DNA of 47,399 nt from Candidatus Calescibacteriota bacterium (GCA_021162785.1 JAGGYA010000021.1:1-47399), one strand, 5' to 3'; shown: positions 11,365 to 27,246, numbered from the stretch's first letter. Program-made: numbers and translations. The notes: generated by a model from the letters alone, not told the origin.

Positions 11365-11365
<1 letters not shown>

Positions 11366-11886
11366 TGAAAGGAAAAGGATTTACTTTGATTGAATTAGTT
11401 GTAGTAATTTCTATTGTAACTACCTTAGCTGGAATTCTTCTCCCTGCACTGGTAAGAGCAAGGGAGCAGGGGAGAAGGGCTGTATGCATGAATAATCTAC
11501 ATAATATTGGTATTGCCCTAAGCATGTATCAGGAAGATTTCGATGGTTTCTATCCGGGGAATAATGTAGAGTATGCTCAACTGTATGCAAAAAAATACAT
11601 TGAGACTGCCAAAACTTTCTGGTGTCCTTCGGATATAGATCCTCCTCCTGAAGAAATTACCCCAGAGAATATAAATATAAGTTATAACTTCAGATATGAA
11701 GCGAAATTGATGGATTCCTATCTTCCCGGAATGGGTGGTGCTTCCACAATCTGGGCTGGATGCGACCTCACACCTATTGGGAAGAGGAATCATGGAAAAG
11801 ATGGAGGTAATGTTCTTTTCTTTGATGGTTCAGTAAGATGGCATAGATTTGGCCCGGATGGAAACTACTCTGGAATCATTCGCTAA
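11365..11886 (+). CDS. Type II-like pseudopilin with H-x10-DG C-terminus
   Basis: The protein (173 residues from the ATG) has a prepilin leader MKGKG followed by FTLIELVVV, with the conserved E5, then one long hydrophobic helix and RAREQGRRAVCMNNL. That is the N1-methylation/cleavage motif of class III pseudopilins. The C-terminus carries NHG...NVLFFDGSVRWH, a variant of the H-x9-DG motif with 10 intervening residues. Such proteins are abundant in PVC and related phyla and are probably exported to the surface. The ATG at 11365 shares its A with the nfnB stop; a GTG one codon upstream is possible. No secretion or pilus assembly genes adjoin it. It ends tail to tail with the next gene, overlapping by 4 bp. 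Confidence 0.85.
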
Positions 11887-12419
11887 AGAAGGGATTTAAT
11901 CTTTTCTATTTTTTCCTTAACTTCTTTACCTAAGGAAGTAGTATCTATAGCCTCCATCAATTCCTTTATTTTTTCTTTTTTTTCTTCCTCTTCCTGGATC
12001 TTCTTCCCCAGTTCTTCTAAGAGTGTTGCTAAGCGAGTAACCCTATCCCCTTTTCTCAATCTTATACTCTCAGGAATTTTTCCTCTTTTCATTTCCTCCA
12101 GAATTTTTTCCAGTCGATAAAGGGGACCAGCAACTCTATGGGAATGGAGGAGGGCTAAAGTAGCCAAAAATAGAGTGGAGAGAATTATTATCAGAATGCA
12201 ACCAATAAGCAATAATCTTTCAGTAGTAAGGAGGTACTTCTCCAAAAGTGTGTTTCCTTCAACTAAGAGAAGGAGGGAGGAGGTAGACTGACTGTAAATA
12301 TAAAGAAAAAAAATTGAATAGAACAAACTGAGTACCATACCACTTCCAGCAAGTAAAGCAATAAAATTAAATTGAATAGCAGGATAAACAAAATATCTTC
12401 TTCTTTTCTTCTTTTCCAT
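11883..12419 (-). CDS. HAMP-type two-helix membrane protein
   Basis: This 178-residue protein has two transmembrane helices (about residues 20-42 and 68-92) separated by a short external loop of about 25 residues. A cytoplasmic HRVAGPLYRLEKIL motif follows, the start of a HAMP-like linker found in chemoreceptor-like proteins of deltaproteobacteria and related anaerobes. The tail is a strongly charged coiled coil (roughly 125-178). No kinase, methyl-accepting or cyclase output domain follows, so it may be a truncated receptor or a scaffold. It is the last gene of the long minus-strand operon, 10 bp after the ferredoxin gene. Confidence 0.6.
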   Translation of the reverse strand: MEKKKRRRYFVYPAIQFNFIALLAGSGMVLSLFYSIFFLYIYSQSTSSLLLLVEGNTLLEKYLLTTERLLLIGCILIIILSTLFLATLALLHSHRVAGPLYRLEKILEEMKRGKIPESIRLRKGDRVTRLATLLEELGKKIQEEEEKKEKIKELMEAIDTTSLGKEVKEKIEKIKSLL

Positions 12420-12429
12420 TTACCTCTTT

Positions 12430-12681
12430 TTACACTTTTACCTTTTCCCTGTCAAGAGAGATTTTTCGGTAAATGGTAATGGCTACATCGGGGCAGATGG
12501 TAATGCAATTGAGGCATCCTGTACATTTCTCTTGAAACTTAGCTTCTACTGGATGGTATCCTTTACTATTTCTTCTGGAGGAGATTACAAGAACTCCTTG
12601 AGGACAAAATCCTATACATAATCCACACCCTTTACATTTTTCCTCATCCACTTTGATGATAAAAGAATACTTTGAAGCCAT
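12430..12681 (-). CDS. Dicluster [4Fe-4S] ferredoxin
   Basis: This is an 83-residue bacterial ferredoxin with two C-x2-C-x2-C-x3-C motifs: CKGCGLCIGFCP near residue 15 and CTGCLNCITICP near residue 53. They are separated by an insert of about 25 residues. The pattern resembles the delta subunit of 2-oxoacid:ferredoxin oxidoreductases (KorD/OorD), but no alpha, beta or gamma subunit follows. Here it is probably a soluble electron carrier serving the Fe-S proteins of the operon. Confidence 0.88.
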   Translation of the reverse strand: MASKYSFIIKVDEEKCKGCGLCIGFCPQGVLVISSRRNSKGYHPVEAKFQEKCTGCLNCITICPDVAITIYRKISLDREKVKV

Positions 12682-12685
12682 TTTC

Positions 12686-14386
12686 CTATTCTACCATAAC
12701 CCTTAGGGATCTCCATCGGTTAAAAGCCTGGGCCACCTCAAATCTGCGAGGTAAAGCGAGGTCAGGGGATGGATGGCCAGTGAGAAACTCAAACCCGAAT
12801 TCTTTAATTCTTTTGAGGATTTTTTCTATACCTTCTCTTAAAGGTAATTTTTCGTTTACTAAATTTTGACCGTAATATCTCATAATTTCTCCTATGCATC
12901 TTAACTGGGTTTCTTCAACAATTTGTTCCACATCCGAGACATCAATGACTTCATTTCCAAAAATTATTTCTTTTAGGCCCTTTGTTTTTACCCAATTTTT
13001 AGCTCTTTTTCTGGAATGGAAACTTTCTTTTTTGACTATTCTGGGTTTGATCTCTCCTGCCCATTCTTTCGCTTCATCTTCCCTCTTAGAGGGATAAAAT
13101 GCACATACTTTTTTGGCTTCCAAAGTCAAATCTTCGGGAAGAAAGTCTTTCATTCCAATTACTACATCTGCTACTTCTAAGTAATCTCCACTTCCTCCCA
13201 CCACTAAGAGAGAAGAAATACCCAATTTTTCCCAGAGCATACGTGCTCTATCTACATAAGGAGTTATAGGTTCTCTTTCTTTAGCTATTAATTTTTGCAT
13301 TCGGCTATCTCTTATGAGGAAATTGGTAGCACAGGTATCTTCATCCATTAGAAGTGCAGTGGCTCCCATTTCCAGTGCTTCCATAATGGAAGCTGCTAAG
13401 GAAGTAGATCCAGACGCATTCTCGGTGGAGAAAAATTTAGTATTTTTCCTTTGAGGGAGGTTGGTAATAAAAGGAGAGATGTCCACACCCTCTATATATC
13501 TTCCATCCTCGCTTCTCACCTTTACCGCATGAGGGTCGGTGATAACCCACTCCCTTCCATCACCAGGAATATGGGGATAAATACCTTCCTGGATAGCATT
13601 TAAAAGGGTAGTTTTACCATGGAATCCACCTCCCACTATTAGAATTACTCCTCGTGGAATGCCCATCCCTTCTACTTTTCCATGATGGGGAGTTTCAAAC
13701 TCTACTCTCATAGAGGGAGGTGAATGAAAAGGAATAGCATTTTCTAAAGGTTTTTGATCTACACCTGACCTTCTGGGAAGGATGGAGTTTTCTCCTACAA
13801 AGGAGATAAGGCTCCTTTGAGGTAGTCTTTCTCTTATCCATTCTATGTCTTCCACCAAATTTACAAATTTTTGGATTTGGTAAGTAGAGAGGTTTGAGTA
13901 AAAGAGGGTAGGAGAAACTTTTTTAATTTCCTCCATCATTTCAATACACTCTTTGGAGAGTATCCTTCTCCCTTTTGCTGGTAAACCCATTAAAAACCTT
14001 ACTTCCACATATTCTTCTTCTACTATGCATCCGGACCGCTTTAAAATAACTTGGCCACCACAAAAGATGCGGTAAACTCCGCTTTTCCCACTTCCCCTTT
14101 TCCGGGAAAAGGGAAGAAGACGGTGAGCAAAATTCCTGAGAAGATAGTTTTCTAAAGCCATTTTCCTTATCCAAGTGGAGTAAAGATGAGAAGGGAAACC
14201 TGCTTTTCCCATAAAGACTCTCAGTCTTACCCGTGAAGGGGTGGCAAAAGGATCCCCTTGAACATGGTCAATTAAAAGAATAACCCCATCCCCAATTCTG
14301 TATTTCCCTTCCAGTTGTTTGTAAGCTTTATAGCCTTTCCCTTCTAAGTTTGCGATTTTTTTCTTCAAATCATCAAAGTTTTGCAT
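12686..14386 (-). CDS. Predicted ABC-class ATPase (COG3044 type)
   Basis: This 566-residue cytoplasmic protein resembles the predicted ATPases of the ABC class that lack membrane partners. An N-terminal region with GKGYKAYKQLEG leads to a Walker A-like VGGGFHGKTTLLNAI about 250 residues in. An S-G-S-T-S signature-like segment and a Walker B ALLMDEDTCATNF come after it. The family is widespread and of unknown function. The start is in a 14-bp overlap with the DUF89 gene; no good ribosome-binding site is seen, so translation is likely coupled. The C-terminal 100 residues end in a Pro/Arg-rich segment (HPSPDLALPRRFE). Confidence 0.82.
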   Translation of the reverse strand: MQNFDDLKKKIANLEGKGYKAYKQLEGKYRIGDGVILLIDHVQGDPFATPSRVRLRVFMGKAGFPSHLYSTWIRKMALENYLLRNFAHRLLPFSRKRGSGKSGVYRIFCGGQVILKRSGCIVEEEYVEVRFLMGLPAKGRRILSKECIEMMEEIKKVSPTLFYSNLSTYQIQKFVNLVEDIEWIRERLPQRSLISFVGENSILPRRSGVDQKPLENAIPFHSPPSMRVEFETPHHGKVEGMGIPRGVILIVGGGFHGKTTLLNAIQEGIYPHIPGDGREWVITDPHAVKVRSEDGRYIEGVDISPFITNLPQRKNTKFFSTENASGSTSLAASIMEALEMGATALLMDEDTCATNFLIRDSRMQKLIAKEREPITPYVDRARMLWEKLGISSLLVVGGSGDYLEVADVVIGMKDFLPEDLTLEAKKVCAFYPSKREDEAKEWAGEIKPRIVKKESFHSRKRAKNWVKTKGLKEIIFGNEVIDVSDVEQIVEETQLRCIGEIMRYYGQNLVNEKLPLREGIEKILKRIKEFGFEFLTGHPSPDLALPRRFEVAQAFNRWRSLRVMVE

Positions 14387-15245
14387 GCTTAGAGAATTTA
14401 GAGGATTTTATAAGAACAATATCCCCTACTTCACCTTTTATATCCCTTGCCACTACGGAACACTTAATCTGGAGGAGGAAAAAAAGAGGGGCTTCTACCT
14501 CGCTTAAAGTCTCATAATTCCCCTGACCTTTTGCCAGGATGAGATCCGAAGAGTGGAATATTTCTCTAAATTTTGAAGAAGAGGATTCCAGTAAAACTCC
14601 CGGAGTTTCATCACCCGTAGAGATTATCTCTGCTACTTCATCCATTTTTATCTCTCTTGCTTCCCTTTCCGTCACATCGTTGATCACAGGCTCCCCCCTT
14701 ACCGCAAAATACACCTTTTTCCCTGGAGGGAATTTCCTTATTACCTCACGGTCAAATACTGCCTCACCTGCATTATCACCTATGTAAAGTATGGTTTGGG
14801 CAGATTCTAAATGGGTTAGAAATTGCTGGAATTGAAAATGCTGGAAGGACTTTATCAATGTTCTTCTTAAATGTTGCAGTAATTCCTTTTCTTCCACATT
14901 CCCCTGTTTAATTACAAAATCGATAAAATTACCTGCCCCAGAAAGCTTCATTAAATCTGCCAGATCCATTGAGGGAATATCCAGTTTCTCAATAACCTTC
15001 TCCACAACTAAATTGGATTGAACTTTATATTCCCTTAAAGGATCTTCGATTTGGGTAAATTTTTTAATGGTTTGATAAATTCTTTTTCCCATTTCCGGCG
15101 GTTTTGAAGAAAGGGAAAAGTGGGGTATAAAAGTGGAAATTTCATCTAAAATACGCTTTTGTAGATCCTCGCTTAATTTTAGTAAACGAAAAATATCCAA
15201 AGCCTGTTTGAAAAAGCAGGGTATACATTCAAGATAGGTTCTCAT
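14373..15245 (-). CDS. DUF89 / ARMT1-like metal-dependent protein
   Basis: This 290-residue member of the DUF89 family starts MRTYLECIPCF, with the characteristic C-x2-C at residues 6-9. It shows the metal-site motifs IGDNAGEAVFD, RGEPVINDVT and STGDETPG, followed by LAKGQGNYETLSE. Characterised eukaryotic relatives are Mn/Ni/Co-dependent damage-control phosphatases acting on sugar phosphates; the small prokaryotic Cys-type members are less well studied. It overlaps the ATPase gene by 14 bp, so the two may work together. Assignment is by motif only. Confidence 0.82.
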   Translation of the reverse strand: MRTYLECIPCFFKQALDIFRLLKLSEDLQKRILDEISTFIPHFSLSSKPPEMGKRIYQTIKKFTQIEDPLREYKVQSNLVVEKVIEKLDIPSMDLADLMKLSGAGNFIDFVIKQGNVEEKELLQHLRRTLIKSFQHFQFQQFLTHLESAQTILYIGDNAGEAVFDREVIRKFPPGKKVYFAVRGEPVINDVTEREAREIKMDEVAEIISTGDETPGVLLESSSSKFREIFHSSDLILAKGQGNYETLSEVEAPLFFLLQIKCSVVARDIKGEVGDIVLIKSSKFSKHAKL

Positions 15246-15246
15246 A

Positions 15247-16032
15247 TTAAAATTTTATTTCTGCACCACACCCAAAATTCAAAAAATCATCCCTCCATTT
15301 ATTTTTAAAAAATATGATGGCTTTATCTCCTGTGCAATGGGAGGGACCCACCTTAGCCACTCCTAATCTTTTAAGTTGAGAAACTATTTCTTTTACTTCC
15401 CTTTCCGAAGCGGAAAGAAGATGAAATCCTCCCAGCAACATATAAATATTTTTATGAAAGCGATCCTTAACATATTCCACAATATTAACAATCCCCGGAT
15501 GAGCACACCCGGTAAGAATTACTAAACCTTTATCACAATCCATTACCAATGACTGTTCTTTTATCCCTTTTCCCAATAAGCCTGTTGACCATACCCCATC
15601 CATGATTTTTAAAGGACCACTTACCTTAATTACCTTTTGGGCTAAGGTAGAAACTTTTTCCACAAAACTGGGAGGAGATATAGCGGGTAGATAAACCGTA
15701 ACTTTACCATTCCGTTGAAGGAAAGAAATAAGACCACCAATATGATCCGCATGGAGATGGGTGATAAAGATTACTTTAATATCCTGAGGAGCTATTCCTA
15801 ATTTTTTAAGATTCTGAAGCAGTATTGAACCATCACTACCTGTGTCAAATAAGATTTTGTAAGTATAGCCTTCAATGACACAGGAAATACCCCAATCGGT
15901 AATTAATCCCTTTTTGTAAGGGAGATTATTATAGACAACTATAATACGGTGGGTTTGGGAAAAGAGAAAAAAGGGGAGAAATGAACTCAAAATTATGATT
16001 ATTGCAGTAAAAACCTTCAGTAATTTTCCCAT
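15247..16032 (-). CDS. Exported metallo-beta-lactamase-fold hydrolase
   Basis: This 261-residue protein has a hydrophobic signal-like N-terminus (residues 6-26) before an MBL domain of the MJ0301 type. The metal motif is THLHADHIGG, with further ligand regions at LTGCAHPGI, GGFHLL and SHCTG near the C-terminus. It is a clear paralogue of the next gene upstream but is predicted to be exported or membrane-anchored. Family members include an archaeal pterin-related synthase, but the substrate here is unknown. It sits 1 bp from the paralogue, consistent with a tandem duplication followed by relocalisation. Confidence 0.85.
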   Translation of the reverse strand: MGKLLKVFTAIIIILSSFLPFFLFSQTHRIIVVYNNLPYKKGLITDWGISCVIEGYTYKILFDTGSDGSILLQNLKKLGIAPQDIKVIFITHLHADHIGGLISFLQRNGKVTVYLPAISPPSFVEKVSTLAQKVIKVSGPLKIMDGVWSTGLLGKGIKEQSLVMDCDKGLVILTGCAHPGIVNIVEYVKDRFHKNIYMLLGGFHLLSASEREVKEIVSQLKRLGVAKVGPSHCTGDKAIIFFKNKWRDDFLNFGCGAEIKF

Positions 16033-16749
16033 TTAAAAGGTAAGAGTTGCACCTGCACCCAAGGAGAGGAAGTTTTCTTCGTATGCTTCCTGGAAGGCTT
16101 TTATTGCTTCCCAACCCGTGCAATGAGTGGGACCAACTTTTTCTATACCCAGACTCTTGAATTTCTCGATAATGTAGTCTATCTCGCTTTTCCCTTTGTC
16201 TAAGAGGTGGAATCCTCCAAGCACTGCAAAGATTTTCTCCTGGGGGAAGAATTGTTTTACCCTTTCCAGAATTGCTACTATCCCTGGATGGGAACAGCCC
16301 GTGATGATTATCAATCCTTTCTCCATTTTCACAATTAGGGATTGTTCAGGCATTGCTCCTCCCATATATACTCCCTTAATTAGCCCCGTGGTAAATATGT
16401 TGGGCTGGAGTTCTTTAAATTCATCGTTGATAATATACTTCCCTCCACCTTTTTTAATAATTATTTTAATTTCCTCTCGGAAACTTGAAAGGATATATAC
16501 TTCTTTCCCTGGATATTGGTGAAGAAAACCATAGAGCCCACCCGTATGGTCATAATGGTCATGAGAAATCACAATTTTTTGAATTTTATTAGCATCTACT
16601 CCCATTGTTTTAACATTTTTAACTAAAAGATCACCATCTTCCCCTGTATCAAAAAGAACATCTTCATTTACTAAGCAAGAGAAACCCCACCCCATTTCAA
16701 ATTTGCTCCGGTCCTGGGTGTAATTGTCAAATAAAATTTTTATTTCCAT
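16033..16749 (-). CDS. Cytoplasmic MBL-fold hydrolase (MJ0301-like)
   Basis: This 238-residue metallo-beta-lactamase-fold protein has the ligand motif SHDHYDHTGG, then ITGCSHPGIV, GGFHLLDKG and GPTHCTG, in the same order as its exported neighbour. No signal peptide is present. COG1237-type members of this group are annotated as dihydropterin-related or metal-dependent hydrolases without firm function. It is followed directly by the exported paralogue and lies 2 bp after the radical SAM gene, so it is part of the same transcript. Confidence 0.87.
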   Translation of the reverse strand: MEIKILFDNYTQDRSKFEMGWGFSCLVNEDVLFDTGEDGDLLVKNVKTMGVDANKIQKIVISHDHYDHTGGLYGFLHQYPGKEVYILSSFREEIKIIIKKGGGKYIINDEFKELQPNIFTTGLIKGVYMGGAMPEQSLIVKMEKGLIIITGCSHPGIVAILERVKQFFPQEKIFAVLGGFHLLDKGKSEIDYIIEKFKSLGIEKVGPTHCTGWEAIKAFQEAYEENFLSLGAGATLTF

Positions 16750-16751
16750 TT

Positions 16752-17690
16752 TTAACCTCCCCTCTTTGGAACAAAATAAATTTTGTTGTTAAACAATTTT
16801 TCTGTAATTTTACCTTTTTTTAACAAAATTTCAATATATTTAAGGATCTCCAGCTTATGAATCCCTAAGGAAGCGGAAAGATTATTTAAAGTTGCTGGTC
16901 TTCGCATGAGGAAAGAGAGGATTTCTTCTTCCAGATGAGCCTTAGGAGAAATTTTCCCTCTTTTTCTAAATTCCGAAATGAATTCTGCTTTACTGCCTAA
17001 GAGTTCTTTTATCTTATTGAGCTTATTTTTCTCCGGAACTTTCACCCATTTTTCCGAAGGGGGGCGGGTGGGGACATTTAATTGGACTTTGTCCGGTTTT
17101 ATTTTCTCTATTGCTCTCTTAAGAGATAAAATTTCTTCCGGTGTATCATTTATCCCATCTACTATCATTATTTCAATCCATAACTTCCCTTCATAGATTC
17201 TTCGGAAATTTATTAATCCTTCCACAATTTTTTCTATTTCCAGTTGGGGATGGGGTCGATTGAGTTTTTGAAAAGTTTCTTTATCAACTGTATCCAAGGA
17301 GGGAATCACAAGGTCAGCTCTCTTTAATTCTTCTCTTACCTCAGGAAGAGTAAGTAGAGTTCCATTGGTAAGTATGGCTACTGGATGGCAAGAAATTCTT
17401 TTGATTTCCTCAATCATTCTCCCTATTTCTAAGTGAAGAGTAGGTTCTCCACTTCCAGAGAAAGTTATGAAATCAATCCTTCTTCCCTCGGAAAGCACCT
17501 CTTTTAAATTTTCCATAATTTTTTCCGTGGGTAAGTAAACTCTGCGATTAATAGTTTTGAGAGTAGTCTTACCCAGTTGGCAATATACACAATCTAAGGT
17601 GCAGGTTTTAAAAGGTATGGGGTCTATTCCCAGAGAGAATCCTAATCTCCGTGAAGGAACAGGACCAAAAATATAGTTTAATTCAGCCAT
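16752..17690 (-). CDS. COG0731-type radical SAM protein with winged helix
   Basis: The first 230 of 312 residues form a radical SAM domain with the cluster motif CTLDCVYCQ near residue 29. It is preceded by [16 protein letters not shown], typical of the COG0731 Fe-S oxidoreductases distantly related to the tRNA wyosine enzyme TYW1. The SAM-binding GSGEPTLH is also visible. The C-terminal ~70 residues ([15 protein letters not shown] onward) look like a winged helix. The substrate is unknown. The 5' end overlaps the Mrp gene by 13 bp. Confidence 0.85.
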
Positions 17691-18511
17691 TCCTCAACTC
17701 TTTTAATAATCTCTATCATCTTTTCCTTTACTCTTCCTTCTCTTAGAATTACTGGTATACCTTCATCACCACACTCTACAACCGAAACATCCAATGGGAG
17801 ATAGCCTAAGAACTCAATTCCCAGTTCTTTTGCAGACCTTTCTCCGCCTCCCTTTTTGAAGAGATATATTTCCTTCCCACAATGAGGACAGATAAACCCA
17901 CGCATATTTTCTATCAAGCCTATCTTTTTCACTCCCAATTCCCGGGCAAACCTTACTGCTTTACGGGAATCTAATAGTGCTACATCTTGAGGAGTGGTTA
18001 CAACAATGGCAATATCAGTTTGAGGGATTAACTGGAGAATGCTTAAAGGTTCATCGCCTGTACCGGGAGGGGAGTCCACCACTAAGAAGTCAAGTTCCCC
18101 CCATTCCACATCTGCTAAGAATTGTCTTATTACACTTGCTTTTAATGGCCCTCTCCAAATCACTGGAGTATCTTTTCCTTGTAATAAGAAAGCCATACTA
18201 ATTACTTTTAATCCCTTATTCCACTCAGGGGGTATGATTCTTCCCCCCTCCATGATCAGTTTTTCCCTCTCCATTCCCAGCATTTTGGGGACATTGGGAC
18301 CGTGAATATCCACATCTAAAATGCCCGTCTTGTATCCTTCTTTTTGTAAAGCTACACTAAGGTTTACTGCTACGGTAGTTTTCCCAACCCCTCCTTTCCC
18401 ACTAAGCACTAAAATTTTATATTTAACCTTCTTCATATTCTCTTTAATCCTCTGATTTTGTTCTTGAATCATTTTCATTTTTTCTTCTGGAGAAAGTCTA
18501 TTCCCTTTCAT
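17678..18511 (-). CDS. Mrp/NBP35-type Fe-S carrier ATPase
   Basis: This 277-residue P-loop ATPase has the deviant Walker [11 protein letters not shown] near residue 36, [20 protein letters not shown] and, near the C-terminus, [14 protein letters not shown] with the CPHC Fe-S-binding pair. Mrp/ApbC/NBP35 proteins bind and transfer [4Fe-4S] clusters. The ATG at 18511 is chosen because it overlaps the DUF169 stop (ATGA) and has GGAGGGG six bases upstream; the longer frame to 18586 lacks such a site. An Mrp-like ATPase next to MinD-ferredoxin ATPases recurs in the orange-protein loci of sulfate reducers. Confidence 0.9.
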
Positions 18512-19122
18512 TTTTTCCCCTCCAAAAGCTTTTTCGCTAAAGGATGTGGGACACCTACCACGAAGGTCTCTCGAGGAATATTGCATTTCTGTCTGGAAAC
18601 TTCACAAGTTAAGGCTATAGTTATATTTTTCTTTATGAAACTTCCCACTGTAACTTCACCACAGACCCCTAATATTCCGGTAAGAGAAATTTTTAATCTT
18701 TCTCCAGTAATTGTGTGGTAATCCCAGATTAGTTTCCCCAATTGAGAAGGTGGTAAATGGGAAAGATAAATATCTGCCTCATTTTCCATTTCCAAACCAA
18801 TATATTGATATCCCGGTGGGAGTTGGGGTATTGCTGAAATTAGAGAGAAAAATTTTTCTTTATTAACTCCTTTACCTGCTTTCTGACAATTTCTGTAAAC
18901 TTCTTCACGGTTCCCTTCTCTAAGAAATACAAATCTTTCTCCAGGATGAGTGACCTGCCTTAAATCAATTATTATTGGACCAATAACTTTTGCCTGATTT
19001 AATGCCTCACAGAAATTTAGATTTTTTAAAGCATTTTGATGATGGGGAGGTATTTCGTGGTAAAAGTTTATTTTGATCCAAGGCCCCCGATAGTGGCATT
19101 CTAATCTTTTAACCATTTCCAT
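18508..19122 (-). CDS. DUF169-like protein
   Basis: This 204-residue soluble protein has [10 protein letters not shown] near residue 36 and a central [10 protein letters not shown]. The later [15 protein letters not shown], and a following cysteine in [11 protein letters not shown], correspond to the cysteine-containing motifs of the DUF169 family. That family has no established activity and is frequent in methanogens and anaerobic bacteria. Several cysteines suggest metal or redox chemistry, but this is inference. It lies between a MinD-ferredoxin ATPase (1-bp gap) and the Mrp gene (4-bp overlap). Confidence 0.65.
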
Positions 19123-19123
19123 T

Positions 19124-19987
19124 TTAAGCCTCCCTTAATCTTTCCCAAGTTTCAATAATGGTTTCTTTGAAAGACTCATCCATTACCTCAACTGGAGGGA
19201 TCCTTTGTTTTACTGCATCAATAATCTTTTCTTGAAAGGGTATTTTCCCAATCACCTCTATGTTATTCTGTTCCGCAAATTCTTCGATTTGGTAGCAATT
19301 TTTTGGATTTATATCGAACTTGTTAATAAGGAGAAAGACCTTTACTCCAAAATGGTGGGCTACACCAATAACTCTTTCCATATCGTGAATTCCAGAGAGA
19401 GTAGGTTCTGTGACTATAAGAGCGGTATTTACCCCACTCAGAGCGGAGATTACTGGACAGCCAATTCCAGGTGGGCCATCAATGAGAATATACTCTAATC
19501 CTTCCTTAACAGCTAATTCTCGTGCCTTTTCTCTCACCACACTTACCAGTTTCCCTGAATTTTCCTGAGCAATTCCCAGTTGTGCATGAACTAATGGACC
19601 ATAAGGAGTGGAAGATACAAAGAATTCTCCTGTTTCTTCTATTTCCAATTTGATTGCCTGTTGTGGACAGACAAGATAACAAACTCCACAACCCTCACAG
19701 GCATATTCATCAATAAAGTATTTTTCTCCTTCCTTATAAATGGCTCCAAATCTGCAGAATTCCTGGCATTTACCGCAATTTTCACACTTTCCGTAATCAA
19801 TAGAGGCTTTTCTACCTCCATGAAAAGTATAAGTTTCCTGAATTTTTGGAGTAACCAGAAGATGAAGATTAGCTGCATCAACATCTGCATCCACCAAGAC
19901 TTTATTTTCCGCTACCACACCTAAGGAAGCAGTTATAACTGTTTTCCCTGTTCCCCCTTTTCCACTTGCAATAACAATTTCCTTCAT
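19124..19987 (-). CDS. MinD-superfamily ATPase with inserted ferredoxin domain (copy 1)
   Basis: This 287-residue ATPase begins with the deviant Walker A ASGKGGTGKT and DADVDAAN. An inserted dicluster ferredoxin at about residues 65-115 follows (CENCGKCQEFC and CEGCGVCYLVCP). Walker B is LIDGPPGIGCPV, and a C-terminal VTEPTLSGIHDM completes the COG1149 pattern. Such proteins occur in pairs in anaerobes; two are part of the orange protein (ORP) complex in Desulfovibrio. The function is thought to be metal-cluster assembly or electron transfer coupled to ATP. The second copy is at 21378-22214. Confidence 0.9.
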   Translation of the reverse strand: MKEIVIASGKGGTGKTVITASLGVVAENKVLVDADVDAANLHLLVTPKIQETYTFHGGRKASIDYGKCENCGKCQEFCRFGAIYKEGEKYFIDEYACEGCGVCYLVCPQQAIKLEIEETGEFFVSSTPYGPLVHAQLGIAQENSGKLVSVVREKARELAVKEGLEYILIDGPPGIGCPVISALSGVNTALIVTEPTLSGIHDMERVIGVAHHFGVKVFLLINKFDINPKNCYQIEEFAEQNNIEVIGKIPFQEKIIDAVKQRIPPVEVMDESFKETIIETWERLREA

Positions 19988-20008
19988 TTTTACACCCCTA
20001 ATCTTTAA

Positions 20009-20284
20009 TTAAATTTTGGATTTGGCTATTCGGTTGAGTTTTTTTCTGAGAAGAGCAAGTTCCTTTTCTATTTTTTGAATCTGTGTATGTATATCTTTAA
20101 GAGAATAAGAAGGCTTTATCTTTTTTATTGCAGACCGAGGACATATCTTTGCACAGAGGAGGCACTCTCTACAAAGAGAAGTGTTTATAGAGGCTTTCCC
20201 CATTATCACTTTAATAGCTCCTGTAGGGCAAACTCTTTCACAAGCACCACATCCTAAGCATAAGGAAACATCTACCCTCAACAT
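20009..20284 (-). CDS. Dicluster ferredoxin with C-terminal coiled coil
   Basis: This 91-residue protein has two [4Fe-4S] motifs: [12 protein letters not shown] near residue 9 and [12 protein letters not shown] near residue 38. An amphipathic charged helix follows ([19 protein letters not shown]). The ATG at 20284 with AAGGAGG upstream is preferred over an in-frame TTG at 20299. The added coiled coil could dock it on a partner and resembles the helical tails of small proteins at the head of this operon. It lies between metV and the first MinD-ferredoxin gene. Confidence 0.82.
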
Positions 20285-20310
20285 CTTTTCCTCCTTCAAA
20301 TTGAAAAATA

Positions 20311-21042: not shown

Positions 21043-21045
21043 CTC

Positions 21046-21381
21046 TTAATCCTCCTTTCTATTTTCCTCAAGATAAGGGAGAATTTCTTTTATTTTTCCC
21101 TTTACACCTACAAAGAATTTAATTCCCCATTCATTAAAGAAGTCCTGTGCTCTTTTACCCATTCCTCCAGCTACCACCAAATTTACTCCCTTTTCCTTCA
21201 AGAAAGCGGGGAGAGCCCCTGGTAAAGGAGAAGAGTTTAGGTAAGGATTAGGAATTTCCTCGATTATTTGGAATCCTTCTTCTGTTTTCCCTACAATTAC
21301 AAAAATTACACATTTCCCGAAATGGGGAGAAATAATACTTTCCCACCCTTTACTATCTTGGCAGGCAAAGGCTATCTTCAT
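21046..21381 (-). CDS. NifX/NafY-like cofactor-binding domain protein
   Basis: This 111-residue single-domain protein of the dinitrogenase FeMo-cofactor-binding family starts MKIAFACQDSKG. It has SPHFGKCVIFV, a run NPYLNSSPLPG, and VVAGGMGKRAQDFFN. The NifX/NifB-C/ORP fold binds metal-sulfur clusters. In Desulfovibrio the related orange protein holds a Mo-Cu cluster and is encoded beside MinD-ferredoxin ATPases, the same arrangement as here. No nitrogenase genes are seen, so a role in nitrogen fixation is unlikely. It overlaps the ATPase gene by 4 bp. Confidence 0.85.
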   Translation of the reverse strand: MKIAFACQDSKGWESIISPHFGKCVIFVIVGKTEEGFQIIEEIPNPYLNSSPLPGALPAFLKEKGVNLVVAGGMGKRAQDFFNEWGIKFFVGVKGKIKEILPYLEENRKED

Positions 21382-22214
21382 TTTATTTTCACCAATTTTT
21401 TAATTTTTTCCCATAAATTTTGGAATTTATCTTTGTGTTCTTCTGCTAAGGTTTCCCCCTTAGAGTAACTCTCTGCAATTTCCCTTTTCAAAGGTATCTT
21501 GTCCAATACCGGGATATCCCTTTTTTCACAGTATTCTTCGATAAGTTCATCACCTTTTCCAGCTCTATTGATGAGCACACCTTTCTTTACTCTTAGTTCA
21601 TCACACATCCTTACTGCTAAGTCCAAATCATGGAGGCCAAAAGGGGTGGGTTCAGTGACAAGAAGAGCAAAATCTGCACCGTGTACCGCCTCTACAACTG
21701 GACAGGAAGTGCCTGGGGAAGTATCTATGATTGTATCTATTTCGTCTTTTGGAATCTTCTTTTTCAAAGCCTTTACTAAAGGAGTGGGGGAGGATTCGCC
21801 TACGGTAAGTTTCCCTTGCCAGAATTTAATATTTTCAACAGTTCCACTTTCAATTATTCCCTTCTCCACATCCACTTCAAATATTGCCTGGTAAGGACAA
21901 GCTATGCTACAAGCACCACAAGAGTGACAAAGTTCATGAAATATTAAGACTTGCCCTTTTACCACTGCAATTGCATTATATTGACATACTTCTGCACATT
22001 TACCACACCCTTTACACTTTGTATCATCAACTATTGGTTTGGGGAGGTAGATAAACTCCCTTTTTTCTATCTTTGGCTTTAGAAAAAGAAAGGCATTAGG
22101 TTCTTCCACATCTGCATCGATGAAGAGGACCGGTTTTTCCAGGGATAAAGCTAAACTGGTAGAGATCAAAGTTTTCCCTGTTCCCCCTTTCCCACTGGTT
22201 ACTGCTACTATCAT
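21378..22214 (-). CDS. MinD-superfamily ATPase with inserted ferredoxin domain (copy 2)
   Basis: This 278-residue paralogue of copy 1 has the deviant Walker A TSGKGGTGKT, IDADVEEPN, and a ferredoxin insert at about residues 63-110 with CKGCGKCAEVC and CHSCGACSIACP. Walker B is IIDTSPGTSCPV, and TEPTPFGLHDLDL completes the set. The two copies are similar in plan but clearly diverged, as in the paired ATPases of ORP loci, where they are believed to act together. It overlaps the methyltransferase by 4 bp upstream and the NifX-like gene by 4 bp downstream, so expression is tightly coupled. Confidence 0.9.
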   Translation of the reverse strand: MIVAVTSGKGGTGKTLISTSLALSLEKPVLFIDADVEEPNAFLFLKPKIEKREFIYLPKPIVDDTKCKGCGKCAEVCQYNAIAVVKGQVLIFHELCHSCGACSIACPYQAIFEVDVEKGIIESGTVENIKFWQGKLTVGESSPTPLVKALKKKIPKDEIDTIIDTSPGTSCPVVEAVHGADFALLVTEPTPFGLHDLDLAVRMCDELRVKKGVLINRAGKGDELIEEYCEKRDIPVLDKIPLKREIAESYSKGETLAEEHKDKFQNLWEKIKKLVKIK

Positions 22215-22852
22215 CTTTCTCCCTCAAAAGAAATTTTCATTCCAATAAATCCTCCAAAGGGGAGGAATCTCAATTTTGGGAGTAAAAGTGGATATAACAC
22301 GGTTTTCCAGTAAATCTTTTTTAGAATGAATTTTTGGTTATCCATAGCCATTTTTGCCAATCTTTTAAGAGATAGAGGATTATAAAAGGTCCCAAAGGAA
22401 CAATAACTTTGAGAAAAAAGACCCTTTATTCGTCGGCTTATTCCTAAGATACTCCAACTGTTAAGTACACCCAAAAAAATTATGCCCCGACTCACCCGAT
22501 AAGCTTCTTTTAAGGCCTGGATAGGGTTGTGAATATACTCCAGCGAAGTAATAAAAATTACTCCATCAAAACTCTTTTCTTTAAAAGGTAGTTGTTGTGC
22601 ATCTCCTTGGATGAGATATTTCACTCGCTTATTTTCTTTTGCAAATTTCAGCATGGGAAACGAGATGTCTATTCCCACCACTTCATAACCTTCTTTTTCC
22701 AGCCAGGAGGCAAATCTACCTGTTCCTGTTCCAACTTCCAGGATCTTTCCTTTAGAAGGTAGGAAAGATTTCATGAGATCCGTCTCCTCTTTGAAAGCCC
22801 TTTTTCCAAAATTTTCTTCATACCATCTATCATATTTTTCTACCCATTTCAT
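22211..22852 (-). CDS. Class I SAM-dependent methyltransferase
   Basis: This 213-residue Rossmann methyltransferase has motif I ILEVGTGTGRFA near residue 37, VVGIDISFPML, and GDAQQLPFKEKSFDGV. It belongs to the ubiE/COQ5-like superfamily, but the acceptor is unknown. Start at ATG 22852 (MKWVEKYDRW) rather than the TTG at 22882, because it overlaps the J-domain gene stop in the usual ATGA manner, although its ribosome-binding site is weak. Methyltransferases of this small type recur near MinD-ferredoxin genes in anaerobes. Confidence 0.8.
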   Translation of the reverse strand: MKWVEKYDRWYEENFGKRAFKEETDLMKSFLPSKGKILEVGTGTGRFASWLEKEGYEVVGIDISFPMLKFAKENKRVKYLIQGDAQQLPFKEKSFDGVIFITSLEYIHNPIQALKEAYRVSRGIIFLGVLNSWSILGISRRIKGLFSQSYCSFGTFYNPLSLKRLAKMAMDNQKFILKKIYWKTVLYPLLLPKLRFLPFGGFIGMKISFEGER

Positions 22853-23142
22853 TTTTTCCCGCTTAACCAATCTCCCTCCCAAAATTGTTTTTTAAGTCTT
22901 TCTTCCAGGTCTAATTTTTCCACATCCTCCTTCCGAAAAGAAAGGGGATAATGAAGGTAGTAATCTTTTAGGATGTCATAGGCCCAATTAATCTTCTTTA
23001 TTTTCTCCGTAGTATTTTTCCCCTTATCTGGATGACTTTTTTTGGTTAATTCCCTGTATCTCTGGACAATTTCTTCCCAGCAAGCTTCTTCTCCTAAACC
23101 TAAGATCTTTCTTGCCCGATTAATCAACTCAAATTTTTTCAA
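22849..23142 (-). CDS. Small J-domain protein
   Basis: This 97-residue protein consists mainly of a J domain: RARKILGLGEEACWEEI, then the invariant HPD in SHPDKGK near residue 37, and INWAYDILKD. It lacks the Gly/Phe and zinc-finger regions of DnaJ, so it is a J-only co-chaperone that may direct an Hsp70 to a specific client. By analogy to HscB it could assist Fe-S protein maturation, fitting its neighbours, but it lacks the HscB C-terminal domain. It overlaps the thiamine-binding protein gene by 14 bp. Confidence 0.82.
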   Translation of the reverse strand: MKKFELINRARKILGLGEEACWEEIVQRYRELTKKSHPDKGKNTTEKIKKINWAYDILKDYYLHYPLSFRKEDVEKLDLEERLKKQFWEGDWLSGKK

Positions 23143-23437
23143 CTAATTTCTCCTTTAAAGAAGACACTTTACCTTCTATAGTTAAAGGTTTGTCTTTTCT
23201 TTCATCGATTTTTACAGTGGTTACAACCCTTACCACATCACTTTCCAAAACAGCTCTATGCATTTCTTCAACCAATTTCAGCAATTCAGAAATTTCCCCT
23301 TCCACGATTGTCCCCATAGAGGTAATCTCAAACTTTACTCCCTTCCTTTTCAGAACCTCCACTGCTTTAGCAACATATTTACTTACAGATGGAGTAGATG
23401 TTCCTATAGGAATAATGCTAATCTCTGCAATAGCCAT
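23129..23437 (-). CDS. MTH1187/YkoF-type thiamine-binding protein (DUF77)
   Basis: This 102-residue ferredoxin-like-fold protein of COG0011 has the signature start AEISIIPIGTSTPSVSKYVA, then TSMGTIVEG and later VVTTVKIDERKD. Family members bind thiamine-like ligands and form tetramers, and are common in archaea and anaerobes. Its link with the Fe-S operon is not explained by sequence. AAGGAG upstream supports the ATG, which lies 18 bp after trxA. Confidence 0.88.
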   Translation of the reverse strand: MAIAEISIIPIGTSTPSVSKYVAKAVEVLKRKGVKFEITSMGTIVEGEISELLKLVEEMHRAVLESDVVRVVTTVKIDERKDKPLTIEGKVSSLKEKLVEKI

Positions 23438-23455
23438 ATTTTACTCCTTACAAAA

Positions 23456-23782
23456 TTATTCCTCTATGTAATTTTTTAGTTTTTCCACAATTGTCTCCTT
23501 AGGGACAGCACCAACGATTCTTTCTTTTTCCTCTCCATCTTTAAAAATAATCAAAGTGGGAATAGCCATCACACCGTAATCAGTAGCAGTGACTGGTGCT
23601 TCATCAACATTTAGCTTACATACCTTCACCTTACCAGCATATTCCATAGAAATTTCTTCCACTATAGGTGAGACTATCATACATGGACCACACCAGGGTG
23701 CCCAAAAATCCACCAGGACTGGTTTCCCCTTTTCTTCCAGCACCTCTTTTCTGAAGTTTATATCGGTCAAAGGTATAACCAT
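23456..23782 (-). CDS. trxA: Thioredoxin
   Basis: This 108-residue classical thioredoxin has the active site WAPWCGPC near residues 28-35 and the cis-proline loop VMAIPTLIIF. It should reduce protein disulfides in the cytoplasm. In this operon it may receive electrons from the flavoprotein at 24458-25816, since no dedicated thioredoxin reductase is adjacent; that pairing is inference. The gene is 4 bp after the OsmC-family gene. Confidence 0.95.
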   Translation of the reverse strand: MVIPLTDINFRKEVLEEKGKPVLVDFWAPWCGPCMIVSPIVEEISMEYAGKVKVCKLNVDEAPVTATDYGVMAIPTLIIFKDGEEKERIVGAVPKETIVEKLKNYIEE

Positions 23783-23786
23783 TCTT

Positions 23787-24215
23787 CTACCCTCCCTCTT
23801 TTATTTCAGGAGATAGTATTATCTCACAATTTAAGGAATTTGAAATCAAACAGTGATTCTTAGTTTTCTCCATAATTATTTTTACCTTTTCCAACTCCCC
23901 TTTTTCAACTTTAATTTGGGGAAGTATTTTTACTTTCTCAAATTTGAGTTTCCCTTCTTTGAATATTACTTCACCTTCAATCTTGCTTTGATAAGAAAGC
24001 AAATGAATTTGAGCTTTTTCTACAAAATAAAGAAAAGTTGTGAGAATGCAAGAATCAATTGAAGCTAAAAAGAGTTCTTCAGGACTTATGAAACCCTGGG
24101 GACCTTTAAATTCAGGTGGAGTAGAAATCTCTATTTTTAAATTGTTAGGGAAGGAAACCACTCCTTTCTTACCCTCTATCCATTTTAACTCTGTAGAAAA
24201 AGTAAAAGGTTTCAT
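23787..24215 (-). CDS. OsmC/Ohr-family protein
   Basis: This 142-residue protein of the OsmC fold has GPQGFISPEELFLASIDSC near residues 40-58, including the conserved active-site cysteine C58. A second cysteine lies near the C-terminus in KTKNHCLISNSL. The two cysteines fit a thiol peroxidase (organic hydroperoxide) mechanism. The pairing with thioredoxin next door suggests an oxidative-stress role in an anaerobe. It is 3 bp from the zinc-ribbon gene. Confidence 0.88.
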   Translation of the reverse strand: MKPFTFSTELKWIEGKKGVVSFPNNLKIEISTPPEFKGPQGFISPEELFLASIDSCILTTFLYFVEKAQIHLLSYQSKIEGEVIFKEGKLKFEKVKILPQIKVEKGELEKVKIIMEKTKNHCLISNSLNCEIILSPEIKEGG

Positions 24216-24218
24216 CTT

Positions 24219-24437
24219 CTATTCTCTTACCATGGGTGTCCCACAGTTAGGACAATTAAGAGTGTAGCAGGGGACGCCCCGTTCATGAGGCACCCGAGTT
24301 CCACAGCGGGGACAAATGCAGTATCCTCCAGGACCTTTTCCTAACCCTCCCATTCTTCCTCTACCTCCACCTCTACCCATGCCTCTTCCCATTCCCGGAC
24401 CAGCACTTAGAGGCCCAGTTCCATTACCACGGGGCAT
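24219..24437 (-). CDS. Glycine/methionine/arginine-rich small protein with zinc-ribbon tail
   Basis: This 72-residue protein begins MPRGNGTGP, the start of DUF5320-type proteins. It runs through a Gly/Met/Arg-rich stretch (GMGRGMGRGGGRGRMGG) and ends in two C-x2-C pairs (CPRCG and CPNCG) with a third, CICP, just before. The ATG at 24437 is chosen over GTG 24446 because AGGAGGTGAG lies five bases upstream. The repeats resemble the tail of the NifX-like protein at 26094-26684. Function unknown; metal binding by the ribbon is likely. Confidence 0.72.
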   Translation of the reverse strand: MPRGNGTGPLSAGPGMGRGMGRGGGRGRMGGLGKGPGGYCICPRCGTRVPHERGVPCYTLNCPNCGTPMVRE

Positions 24438-24457
24438 TTTTCTCACCTCCTTTCATT

Positions 24458-25816
24458 TTAAGAAATATCTCTCATTTTTCTGGTCCCATCCATTGTGGCA
24501 GCCACTAAAGGATAAAGTGTGGGAGGAGAAGTGAGCCAGGGATGCGTAGCCATTTGGAAAGTTTCCAGTTCAACAGCCGGTGCTCTTTTCTGAATAGCCA
24601 TTCCCACAACATTAATGAGTTCACCCACACTTGCACCTCCAGCAATTTGACCACCAAGGATGGTTGTAGAAAGTCGTGAGAATATAAGTTTTATCCTTAT
24701 CTTTTTAGTTCCATGAAGGGTGGCAGGATGTTTATCCGGGACAGTAGTTTCACCTATCACCACTTCGAAGTTCTCCTCCTCCGCTTTTCTCTGAGTCAAC
24801 CCCGCTGAACCAAGAACCTGCTCTCCAACTTTTGTTGAGAAGACAGCAATGGTCCCCTTTATTTCCCTCAAAACCTTCACTCCAAAAAGATTGGAGCCTG
24901 CCACTCTTGCCTCCGCAGTAGCAGTGGAAGCAAGCATCACTGGAAGGTGTTTCCTTGTAAAGAAACAACGTTTTTCAGCACAGTCTCCAACAGCAAAAAT
25001 GCTGGGATCTGATGTTCTCATGTATTCATCCACCCAAATTCCTCCTCCTCTCCCAATCCAGAGACCCATATCCTCAGCCATTTTAATGTTCGGTTTTGCT
25101 CCAATGGATAAAATTACGAGATCAGCAGGGATGGTCTCTCCGCCAGAAAGTTTGACTTCTGATACCCGTTTCCCACCTTCAAAACTTACCACTTTTCTTC
25201 CCAGCCACAACTTTACTCCTTTTTTCCTGAGTTCTTCTTCTGCAAGAATACAGAATTCTTCGTCAAATGCCCGAAGTAGACAATGGGGAAGAAGTTCCAC
25301 GATATGAATTGACTTCCCGCTAATATTGGATATCTCATCTGCAAATTCCACTCCTATAAATCCTCCTCCCACAATTACAATATTTCTTGCTTTATAGACT
25401 TCTTCCCGTAAAGTTTCCAGATACTCAAGTTCCTTTTTTATAGTGAAGATTCCTTCCTTTTCCACACCCGGAATTTTAGGAATCAAAGGTTCTGATCCTA
25501 TAGCCAGAATAAGTTTGTCGTATTTGATCTTTTTACCATTAGCCAATTTTACTTCTTTTTTATCTCGGTCAATCTGGATGACTTTGCCTATGAGAACTTC
25601 AATATCGTGGGTTTTAAGTGGTTCATCAGAAAGGATGTCCTTTTTAGCAGAGTCTAAACTATGAAAGATATAGGGTATACCGCAAGGAATTACACTCACC
25701 TTATGTTCCCTTATCAATAAAAAATTTTTTTTAGGATAATATTTTTTTCCCGTAACTGCACTTACCACTCCCGCAGGTCCTCCACCAATTACTACAACAT
25801 CAAAAAATTCGGCCAT
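24458..25816 (-). CDS. FAD-dependent disulfide reductase-like oxidoreductase
   Basis: This 452-residue flavoprotein of the CoA-disulfide reductase/NADH oxidase/polysulfide reductase group has FAD motif VVVIGGGPAGVVSA near residue 7. The redox cysteine is in VIPCGIPYIF near residue 45, and the NAD-binding VIVGGGFIGVEFADEI lies near 155. FAVGDCAE precedes the C-terminal dimerisation domain. The single conserved cysteine, not a CxxC pair, separates it from thioredoxin reductases. It could reduce CoA-disulfide, polysulfide or oxygen. The ATG at 25816 has AAAGGAG about eight bases upstream. Confidence 0.87.
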   Translation of the reverse strand: MAEFFDVVVIGGGPAGVVSAVTGKKYYPKKNFLLIREHKVSVIPCGIPYIFHSLDSAKKDILSDEPLKTHDIEVLIGKVIQIDRDKKEVKLANGKKIKYDKLILAIGSEPLIPKIPGVEKEGIFTIKKELEYLETLREEVYKARNIVIVGGGFIGVEFADEISNISGKSIHIVELLPHCLLRAFDEEFCILAEEELRKKGVKLWLGRKVVSFEGGKRVSEVKLSGGETIPADLVILSIGAKPNIKMAEDMGLWIGRGGGIWVDEYMRTSDPSIFAVGDCAEKRCFFTRKHLPVMLASTATAEARVAGSNLFGVKVLREIKGTIAVFSTKVGEQVLGSAGLTQRKAEEENFEVVIGETTVPDKHPATLHGTKKIRIKLIFSRLSTTILGGQIAGGASVGELINVVGMAIQKRAPAVELETFQMATHPWLTSPPTLYPLVAATMDGTRKMRDIS

Positions 25817-25857
25817 TTTCTTCACTCCTTTCCCTTCTTTACCTTAACTTTTTACCT

Positions 25858-26091
25858 TTACTTTTCGCAGCAGCGCTTAGGGTTATCGCAGGGATTTGGA
25901 CAGCAGGTGGGCTTTTTATAATCTGTGGCGTAAAATCCGGGACCTTTGAAAATAAAACCACCACCTCCCGAGAAGAGTCTCTGAACTTCTCCCCCACACT
26001 TAGGGCAGGTTTTAATGGCTTCTTCTTTTATACTTTGGAATTTTTCAAATCTATAGCCACAATTTTTGCACTGGTATTCGTAAGTAGGCAT
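25858..26091 (-). CDS. FmdB-type zinc-ribbon protein
   Basis: This 77-residue protein starts [16 protein letters not shown] and contains [18 protein letters not shown]. The paired C-x2-C ribbons are typical of the FmdB family of putative regulatory proteins. The tail adds an unusual cysteine cluster (CCPNPC, then [10 protein letters not shown]) that goes beyond the family core and could hold metal. It starts 2 bp after the NifX-like gene. Confidence 0.85.
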
Positions 26092-26093
26092 TT

Positions 26094-26684
26094 TTATTTC
26101 TCCTTTTCCAATTCCTCAATCCTCTTAAGAATGACCTCTAATTGTTTTTTCAAATTATCAGCTTGGTTCTTGAGCATTTTAAGTTCTTCCTCTCGGGAAA
26201 GTGAGGGAGGAGTAGGAGTAGAAGGAGCAGGTGGATAGAAACCGGGGGCCATTCCCCAGCCTCTCCCTCTCCCCATACCAAAGCCTCCCATTCCTCTTCC
26301 CATACCAAAACCCATTCCGGGACCCATTCCAAAGTGGGGTGGAACATTGGGTTGGAAAGCGGGCTGTAATTCGCCCCGTTTAAATCTTTCCACTGCATCT
26401 CTTACTCTACCCACTACACCCACGATTACCTTTACACCTGCAGTTTGGAGTACCTGAAAAGCATTTGGACCGCAACTCCCTGTAAGGACTGCTTCCACGC
26501 CTTGGTTAGCTACAAATTGGGCTGCCTGAATTCCTGCTCCGGTGAGACTGTGAGCATATGGATTTTCTATTGCTTCAAACTCCATACTTTCAGTATCCAC
26601 AATGATGTAGTATGGGCATCGGCCAAATCTTGGATCCACGGAGGAATCAAGAGAACTTCCCTGAGCAGTTACCGCAATCTTCAT
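26094..26684 (-). CDS. NifX-like protein with Gly/Met-rich linker and coiled coil
   Basis: Residues 1-115 form a dinitrogenase cofactor-binding (NifX/ORP-like) domain: [37 protein letters not shown] and [14 protein letters not shown], the last with a cysteine at a likely cluster site. Residues 118-150 are glycine/methionine/arginine/phenylalanine-rich ([20 protein letters not shown]), followed by a proline stretch. Residues 160-196 are a coiled coil ending [10 protein letters not shown]. The last module resembles the end of the neighbouring 108-residue protein. The ATG overlaps that gene's stop (ATGA) with GGAGGGG upstream. It is clearly distinct from the single-domain NifX at 21046. Confidence 0.87.
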
Positions 26685-27007
26685 TTTTTCCCCTCCAGTT
26701 CCTCAATCCTTTTCCTTATACTTTCTAATTGATCCTCTAATAGTTCCTGTTGCTGCCTAAGGTAGTTAAGTTCATCCTCTGGAGTAGGTGGATTAGCAAA
26801 TGGGAAACCAAATGCTGGGAAAGGTGCATATCCGCTCTGGAATGCCTGCCAGAAAGCCTGCATTTGTGGAGTTGGCCATGTTCCATAGAGAAGGTAGGTA
26901 GCTGCTGGACCAAGTCCTGTTGGGCTTCTTCCTATCCATCCCGGTGAAAATCCAAACCTCATCCAACCGGGAAGCCCGGTGAGATAGAACATCCAGCGAT
27001 ACCTCAT
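26681..27007 (-). CDS. Trp/Phe/Tyr/Pro-rich small protein with coiled-coil tail
   Basis: This 108-residue protein is unrecognised beyond DUF5320-like character. The N-terminal 75 residues are rich in W, F, Y, G and P. From about residue 75 a charged helix starts PTPEDELNYLRQQQELLEDQ and ends [10 protein letters not shown], closely matching the end of the NifX-like neighbour. The helical tails may let these proteins associate. No signal peptide or clear membrane helix is seen, although the N-terminal 30 residues are hydrophobic. AAGGAGGTGA upstream of the ATG supports the start. Confidence 0.65.
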   Translation of the reverse strand: MRYRWMFYLTGLPGWMRFGFSPGWIGRSPTGLGPAATYLLYGTWPTPQMQAFWQAFQSGYAPFPAFGFPFANPPTPEDELNYLRQQQELLEDQLESIRKRIEELEGKK

Positions 27008-27033
27008 TTTTCCATCACCTCCTTTTCTTTATC

Positions 27034-27246
27034 TTACCAGTAAGGAAAGTATCTATAACCCCAGGTTGCCCAGCTGGCAGGAGTCCACCATCCTGCATAA
27101 TAAGGTATGGTGGAGGCGTAGTAACCTGCATAAGGAGTTGCCCACCACCAGCGAGGTAACCAGGGGAACCATCTGCAGAAAGGATAGGGATTTCCTCTCC
27201 ATCCCCATCCATACCACCATCCACCTCTTCCAAATCCACGGGGCAT
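27034..27246 (-). CDS. Trp/Tyr-rich small protein, first gene of the sigma-54 operon
   Basis: This 70-residue protein begins MPRGFGRGGWWYGWGW and is almost all W, Y, G, P and A. It shares the MPRG start with the zinc-ribbon protein at 24219, so a DUF5320-like relationship is plausible. ATG 27246 is chosen because AAAGGAGGTGAG lies directly upstream; a longer frame to 27339 would run through the hairpin and promoter. There is no catalytic motif. Function unknown; repeated aromatic residues could bind a ligand or another protein. Confidence 0.6.
   Translation of the reverse strand: MPRGFGRGGWWYGWGWRGNPYPFCRWFPWLPRWWWATPYAGYYASTIPYYAGWWTPASWATWGYRYFPYW

Follow-up and report, generated by a model that had tools for sequence, protein, structure and literature searches.

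A MinD-ferredoxin and NifX gene block in a Candidatus Calescibacteriota genome as a candidate operon for iron-sulfur assembly, storage and delivery

What is the function of a run of about 25 closely packed genes in which two ferredoxin-bearing MinD-like ATPases, two NifX-type proteins and an Mrp ATPase are accompanied by a thioredoxin, a J-domain protein and many others? The question is raised by a 47,399-nucleotide stretch from a Candidatus Calescibacteriota bacterium (GCA_021162785.1 JAGGYA010000021.1:1-47399; contig C17 of a 0.95 Mb assembly that is 64% complete), here called the window, whose host is probably an uncultured anaerobe. Open reading frame (ORF) calling places these genes in one minus-strand run, from an ATG at 27246 to 11883, and all members of the block described below lie on that strand. 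An initial annotation had proposed a metal-sulfur role for the block, and this role is supported by an orange protein (ORP)-type core and by accessory genes that recur on the same strand in other genomes. Judging from sequence comparisons, we consider it fairly probable that the block is an operon whose products, centered on an ORP/IssA-type core, assemble, store and deliver iron-sulfur (metal-sulfide) species.

The most distinctive members of the core are MinD-Fd1 (21378-22214) and MinD-Fd2 (19124-19987), each with the motif KGGTGKT and an inserted 2[4Fe-4S] ferredoxin marked by two CxxCxxCxxxC motifs. AlphaFold2 models of the two proteins are confident (pLDDT 90 and 92, respectively), and that of MinD-Fd1 matches MinD, ATPase-type HypB, ApbC and ChlL-type folds, MinD better than ChlL. 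The eight ferredoxin cysteines are kept, with one Ser exception, in the 91 and 83 aligned homologs of the two proteins (window included). An additional cysteine, Cys171 in MinD-Fd1 and Cys177 in MinD-Fd2, lies seven residues past the Walker-B Asp in every aligned member of both families (91/91 and 83/83, again with the window included), while all 43 Mrp homologs have Asp at this position. The same spacing separates the NifH residues that we take to be Asp125 and Cys132 (the sequence itself was compared with the PDB entry). When the insert is removed from MinD-Fd2, profile alignment sets Cys177 on NifH Cys132; the local profile alignment of MinD-Fd1 with NifH spanned the P-loop part only, so that the equivalence is one of spacing in MinD-Fd1 and of alignment in MinD-Fd2. 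The comparison suggests that the MinD-Fd proteins and NifH may have a common metal site at a dimer interface. A scan of viral contigs for MinD-Fd1 found no relatives.

The second element of the core is NifX1 (26094-26684; PF02579 and PF17253), which consists of a NifX/ORP domain, a Gly/Met/Arg tail, a Pro stretch and a predicted coiled coil. Its best PDB match is the Desulfovibrio gigas ORP (2wfb; E 2.2e-24, 89 bits), and MTH1175 (81 bits) is also close among the solved structures. The 88-residue tail has a pI of 9.5, with 17% Gly and 14% Lys/Arg, and in composition is comparable to the basic, Gly-rich tails that passages of PMC5524996 describe for IssA and the uncharacterised IssX clade. A second NifX-domain protein, NifX2 (21046-21381; PF02579), and a single-domain Mrp/NBP35 ATPase of 302 residues (17678-18586; PF10609, E 2e-94; KGGVGKT and CPHC) complete the set. 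The start of Mrp is probably internal to its longest ORF, because that ORF overlaps the neighboring DUF169 gene.

Does this combination of genes extend beyond one contig? Neighborhoods were compared across 100 MinD-Fd loci, 20 of them from genomes around the window's own and 80 named loci spread over many phyla of bacteria and archaea, with 38 regions drawn at random from the first genome set, that of the 20 nearby loci, serving as the control; neighbors were counted by profiles built from matches. By these counts the core, namely the MinD-Fd pair, NifX proteins and often Mrp, is conserved together with recurrent accessories. NifX genes occur in 89 loci (199 of 204 on the same strand) and Mrp genes in 44 (41/44). 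The accessories include the Gly-rich zinc ribbon (30 loci, 34/34 genes on the same strand), DUF134 (22 loci, 17/22), the methyltransferase (21 loci, 23/28), metallo-beta-lactamase (MBL)-fold proteins (24 of 27 genes with two profiles, one MBL cluster being present in 21 loci), COG0731 (18 loci, 17/19), FmdB (17 loci, 23/25), DUF89 (16 loci, 16/16) and DUF5320 (16 loci, 18/18). The small J-domain gene is found in eight loci and three phyla (7/8 on the same strand; the member in L058 is an ordinary DnaJ), OsmC in four (4/4) and DUF169 in three (3/3). The random regions held zero to two loci per family, except for the sigma54 activator (3), and among the core families only Mrp was found in them (2 loci). 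Contiguous same-strand runs with at least five accessory families are not confined to the window's own class (L038, L039, L040): Planctomycetota (L068, L113), Omnitrophota (L084) and Bipolaricaulota (L093) have them too. The expectation that the extra genes would be distributed non-randomly in relatives thus holds for DUF89, COG0731, MBL, the methyltransferase, the zinc ribbon and FmdB, and in smaller numbers for the J-domain protein and DUF169, but it fails for four others: MetV (one same-strand gene, in one of the 100 loci), the MTH1187 family and the ABC-class ATPase (neither in any of the 100) and the HAMP-like gene (not recurrent among them). These four are probably co-transcribed passengers. 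MetV was considered as a defining member, and was rejected as such on its single occurrence and its relocation between sister genomes, where it adjoins MetF or sits in a hydrogenase operon.

Relatives also link the core to genes of iron uptake and regulation, as their gene order indicates. NifU/IscU-like genes are present in 23 loci (25/25 on the same strand), Fur in 17 (16/17) and FeoB in 10 (8/11), with FeoA in 8 and MIP18 in 6 of the 100. A Fur-family gene often leads the operon in relatives, and Fur-box-like sites of the 7-1-7 form are found at the promoters that head the operons in L037, L038, L039, L041, L070 and L084. In two genomes (G004 and G006) the sole Fur detected is the one in the MinD-Fd operon.

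The association with some accessories can be followed at the genome level, among 60 sampled genomes of which 22 have a MinD-Fd pair and 38 do not, by tests in which relatedness and anaerobic life style are uncorrected. DUF89 accompanies MinD-Fd in 16/22 versus 6/38 genomes (p 1.6e-5) and COG0731 in 18/22 versus 9/38 (p 1.4e-5), both remaining below 1e-4 with the window's phylum cut to one genome; the small J-domain protein was found in MinD-Fd genomes only (6/22 versus 0/38, p 0.0015). Several of the same genes also gather in satellite operons: one holds Mrp, COG0731, NifU-like, methyltransferase, TrxR-like, Trx, DUF89, Mrp and HypA genes (L204), another DUF89, methyltransferase and TrxR-like genes (L199), and a third RACo-like, methyltransferase and J-domain genes (L198). 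By the neighborhood and genome counts together, COG0731, DUF89, MBL and the methyltransferase are best described as recurrent partners of the core. In genome G019, Fur, three NifX-type genes and COG0731 lie on one strand away from the MinD-Fd pair (L208), possibly as a second, core-less form of the operon. RACo-like corrinoid-activator homologs adjoin core or satellite genes in L038, L039, L043, L198 and L207.

All genes named in the initial annotation are present, with ORF calls, Pfam matches and motifs in agreement, although its title left out a good part of the block: OsmC, the flavoprotein, FmdB, the Gly-rich zinc ribbon, two DUF5320-type proteins, MTH1187, the methyltransferase and the PF09818 ATPase. 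The first gene encodes a 70-residue protein rich in Trp, Tyr, Gly and Arg (27034-27246; 40% aromatic, pI 9.8, no Pfam match), followed by a DUF5320-type protein (26681-27007; PF17253). Downstream of NifX1 come an FmdB-family zinc ribbon (25858-26091; TIGR02605), a CoA-disulfide-reductase-like flavoprotein with a PCGIP cysteine (24458-25825; its match is below the equivalog cut-off), a Gly/Arg-rich zinc ribbon protein with two CxxC motifs (24219-24446; pI 10.4), an OsmC-like protein (23787-24215; PF02566), a thioredoxin (23456-23782; PF00085, WCGPC), an MTH1187-family thiamine-binding protein (23129-23437; TIGR00106), the small J-domain protein (22849-23142; PF00226, HPD) and a class I methyltransferase (22211-22882; PF08241). 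MetV, of which this is the only copy detected in the genome (20311-21042; PF12225), and a 2[4Fe-4S] ferredoxin recognized by family match and motifs (20009-20299) lie between NifX2 and MinD-Fd2; a DUF169-like protein (18508-19122; PF02596) precedes Mrp. The remainder of the block encodes a radical SAM protein that we take to be of the COG0731 type (16752-17690; PF04055, CxxxCxxC), two MBL-fold proteins with HxHxDH motifs (16033-16749, PF00753, PDB match 7dck; and 15247-16032, PF00753), a DUF89/ARMT1-like damage-control phosphatase (14373-15245; PF01937, PDB match 2g8l), an ABC-class ATPase of the PF09818/MRB1590 type (12686-14386; family match), a second 2[4Fe-4S] ferredoxin, also recognized by family match and motifs (12430-12681), and finally a two-transmembrane, HAMP-like protein described from its sequence (11883-12419; no Pfam match). 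The second MBL-fold protein has a hydrophobic N-terminus that is a probable signal peptide and the first has none, so that the two may work in separate compartments.

The block is continuous, as had been claimed: no intergenic gap exceeds 32 bp and many genes overlap. Nor did we detect the separate internal promoters or terminators that could divide it, promoter-like matches numbering 31 versus 36 in shuffled sequence and terminator-like matches 12 versus 19. Given one strand, short gaps or overlaps and no signals above the shuffle level, a single transcript is plausible. The most likely start of the first gene is the ATG at 27246, accompanied by AGGAGGTG. About 113 bp separate it from the TGT gene, with which another same-strand run upstream (murB-ftsQAZ-SHMT-TGT) ends, and in this interval lies an inverted repeat of nine pairs, GTTTTTGAG-taaggtat-CTCAAAAAC (27318-27343, minus strand), which could either terminate transcription of the genes upstream or serve as an operator, and of which no second copy was found in the window or the fetched loci. 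The FtsZ-like gene of the upstream run (30844-31797, minus strand) has a good FtsZ_C match and a weak match to the GTPase domain; its GGGTGSG-type motif reads AGLGGDIS by eye, and it may be a degenerate FtsZ. At the downstream end, the last gene of the operon overlaps a convergent pilin-type gene by 4 bp. On the plus strand at 8091-11365, exbB- and exbD-type genes lie between a DHODB/NfnA-like gene (8091-8924) and one of the GltD/NfnB-like type (from 9926; GltD-like by eye); such an insertion is unusual for an Nfn-like pair.

How might these proteins work together? In the arrangement we envisage, NifX1 and the Gly/aromatic-rich proteins would hold iron-sulfide species, and MinD-Fd1 and MinD-Fd2 would act as a pair: dependent on ATP and carrying ferredoxins, they would serve as donor or loader and would reduce or move the clusters on NifX1; such a transfer of electrons or clusters from MinD-Fd to NifX1 is a tentative proposal. 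Mrp would then carry the product to apo-proteins, with the J-domain protein recruiting Hsp70 for the hand-over, and the thioredoxin, the CoA-disulfide-reductase-like flavoprotein and OsmC could keep thiols reduced. Metalloenzymes are encoded alongside these chaperone and thiol-redox helpers. A more specific version, which we regard as speculative and rather unlikely in its full detail, has the two MinD-Fd proteins as a heterodimer gated by ATP in the manner of NifH, with four ferredoxin clusters and an interface site based on the two invariant Cys; the heterodimer would reduce and mobilize an iron-sulfide store on NifX proteins of the IssX/ORP type. Mrp and a J-domain protein dedicated to the task would complete what would be an anaerobic Fe-S supply system in its own right, linked to Fur and widespread among bacteria and archaea.

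The closest known relative is the ORP complex of Desulfovibrio vulgaris. Passages of PMC6345978 report that Orp3-Orp4-Orp8 receives Fe-S clusters from MrpORP in vitro and that ORP-type proteins carry a Mo-Cu-S cluster, and, with passages of PMC3897727, describe a pair of divergently oriented operons together with a sigma54 activator. The block resembles this complex (Orp3/4/5/8/9) in its pair of MinD-like paralogs with two 4Fe-4S motifs apiece, in its ORP/NifX protein (NifX1) and in having an Mrp ATPase. It differs in that the window Mrp matches P-loop NTPase families only and has no NifX domain; in being a single-strand block rather than divergent operons controlled by sigma54 and IHF, with no sigma54 activator found among its proteins in Pfam searches; and in holding many additional genes. 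The earlier identification as the core of the ORP complex is therefore sound for the MinD-Fd pair and the ORP-type NifX but not for the unfused Mrp or the operon structure, and since it lacks both the fused MrpORP and the divergent sigma54 operons, the block is better called an ORP variant than the Desulfovibrio ORP system itself. NifX1 shares with the iron-sulfur storage proteins IssA/IssX (Pyrococcus furiosus PF2025 and relatives) a NifX-type domain and a basic, Gly-rich, partly aromatic tail; unlike them, it has a tail that is also Met-rich and ends in the predicted, DUF5320-like coiled coil, and its gene lies in one block with those of the MinD-Fd pair and Mrp. Like Mrp/NBP35 Fe-S carriers such as ApbC and Nbp35/Cfd1, Mrp of the window contains a deviant Walker A and a CXXC motif; the MinD-Fd proteins form a separate family, distinguished by the inserted ferredoxin and by a Cys that matches the spacing of Cys132 in NifH. 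In their P-loop fold and in that Cys the MinD-Fd proteins are like NifH/ChlL-type reductases, but unlike NifH they have two inserted 4Fe-4S clusters and no Cys97 ligand (see below). In contrast to SUF, ISC and NIF systems, the block is without a cysteine desulfurase and a scaffold, neither being found among its proteins in Pfam searches. In literature judged mostly at the level of titles, abstracts and passages, no published description of the extended gene set was met with.

Other explanations must be considered. The ORP system of D. vulgaris (DvH) is putatively involved in septum positioning, according to passages of PMC3897727 and PMC6345978, and the MinD fold and the fts cluster upstream on the same strand would suit a cell-division complex in which MinD paralogs place the septum and metal-sulfur proteins sense the redox state. 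We consider this improbable: the hairpin and some 113 bp part the TGT gene from the operon, the core is accompanied across phyla by Fur, FeoAB, NifU/IscU, Mrp and zinc ribbons, and no fts or min gene was recognized among the recurrent neighbor families. Perhaps, instead, the block matures or activates one-carbon/corrinoid or nickel enzymes of the Wood-Ljungdahl type, as could be argued from the presence of MetV in the window, of RACo-like activators (4 loci) and LarB/LarC (4-5 loci), of an FTHFS-like gene adjoining the core in Omnitrophota (L084) and of HypA in a satellite operon. This too is unlikely, considering that MetV was found in only one other locus and moves between sister genomes, and that the ACS family is present in only one of the seven phylum genomes searched, several of them incomplete.

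It could also be that a small ORP core is simply co-transcribed with unrelated housekeeping genes in the super-operon of a compact genome. The window does contain other tight same-strand runs, such as the one that ends with the TGT gene, four of the extra genes do not recur, and COG0731 and DUF89 often lie elsewhere in genomes. Against this explanation, to which we give little credence, stand the recurrence of several extras on the same strand across phyla, their co-occurrence at the genome level and the satellite operons in which the extras remain together (L204, L199, L198). Least probable of all is a heterometal (Mo-Cu, or Cu/soft-metal) sulfide system in place of an iron system: the Mo-Cu-S cluster reported for ORP-type proteins in passages of PMC6345978, the Met/Gly-rich tails and the zinc ribbons would fit it, but the linkage to Fur, FeoAB and NifU/IscU points to iron.

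Several observations weigh against the iron-sulfur operon that we favor. The loci were chosen by similarity to the window's MinD-Fd1, and co-occurrence with MinD-Fd in part reflects shared anaerobic life. A search anchored on COG0731 and DUF89 placed their copies away from the core in most sampled genomes; they were therefore rejected as obligate members and are treated as recurrent partners, not obligate subunits. The second NifH ligand, Cys97, is not conserved, Asn143 standing there in MinD-Fd2. Fur-box density shows no enrichment (17.2 per Mb in all loci versus 16.5 in random regions), so that the Fur-box evidence is positional and found by inspection. In the window, the operon contains no fur gene and does not begin with a strong Fur box, the fur gene of this genome lying on another contig with feoAAB. 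A canonical IscU and a desulfurase-like gene are likewise on another contig of the same genome, and the operon was accordingly rejected as the sole Fe-S system. The SufB/D family gave no match in family-f1 genomes G000, G001 and G002 and one match in each of four f2 genomes, all of these being incomplete; G001 is without both SufB and the core, and the f1/f2 contrast was not used as evidence.

ORP genes are common in anaerobes, and their role is disputed between septum positioning and Fe-S maturation. The linkage of the MinD-Fd/NifX core to Fur, FeoAB, NifU/IscU-like and J-domain genes, together with the invariant cysteine of the MinD-Fd proteins, leads to testable predictions in which such blocks would serve the storage and delivery of Fe-S under anaerobic conditions.

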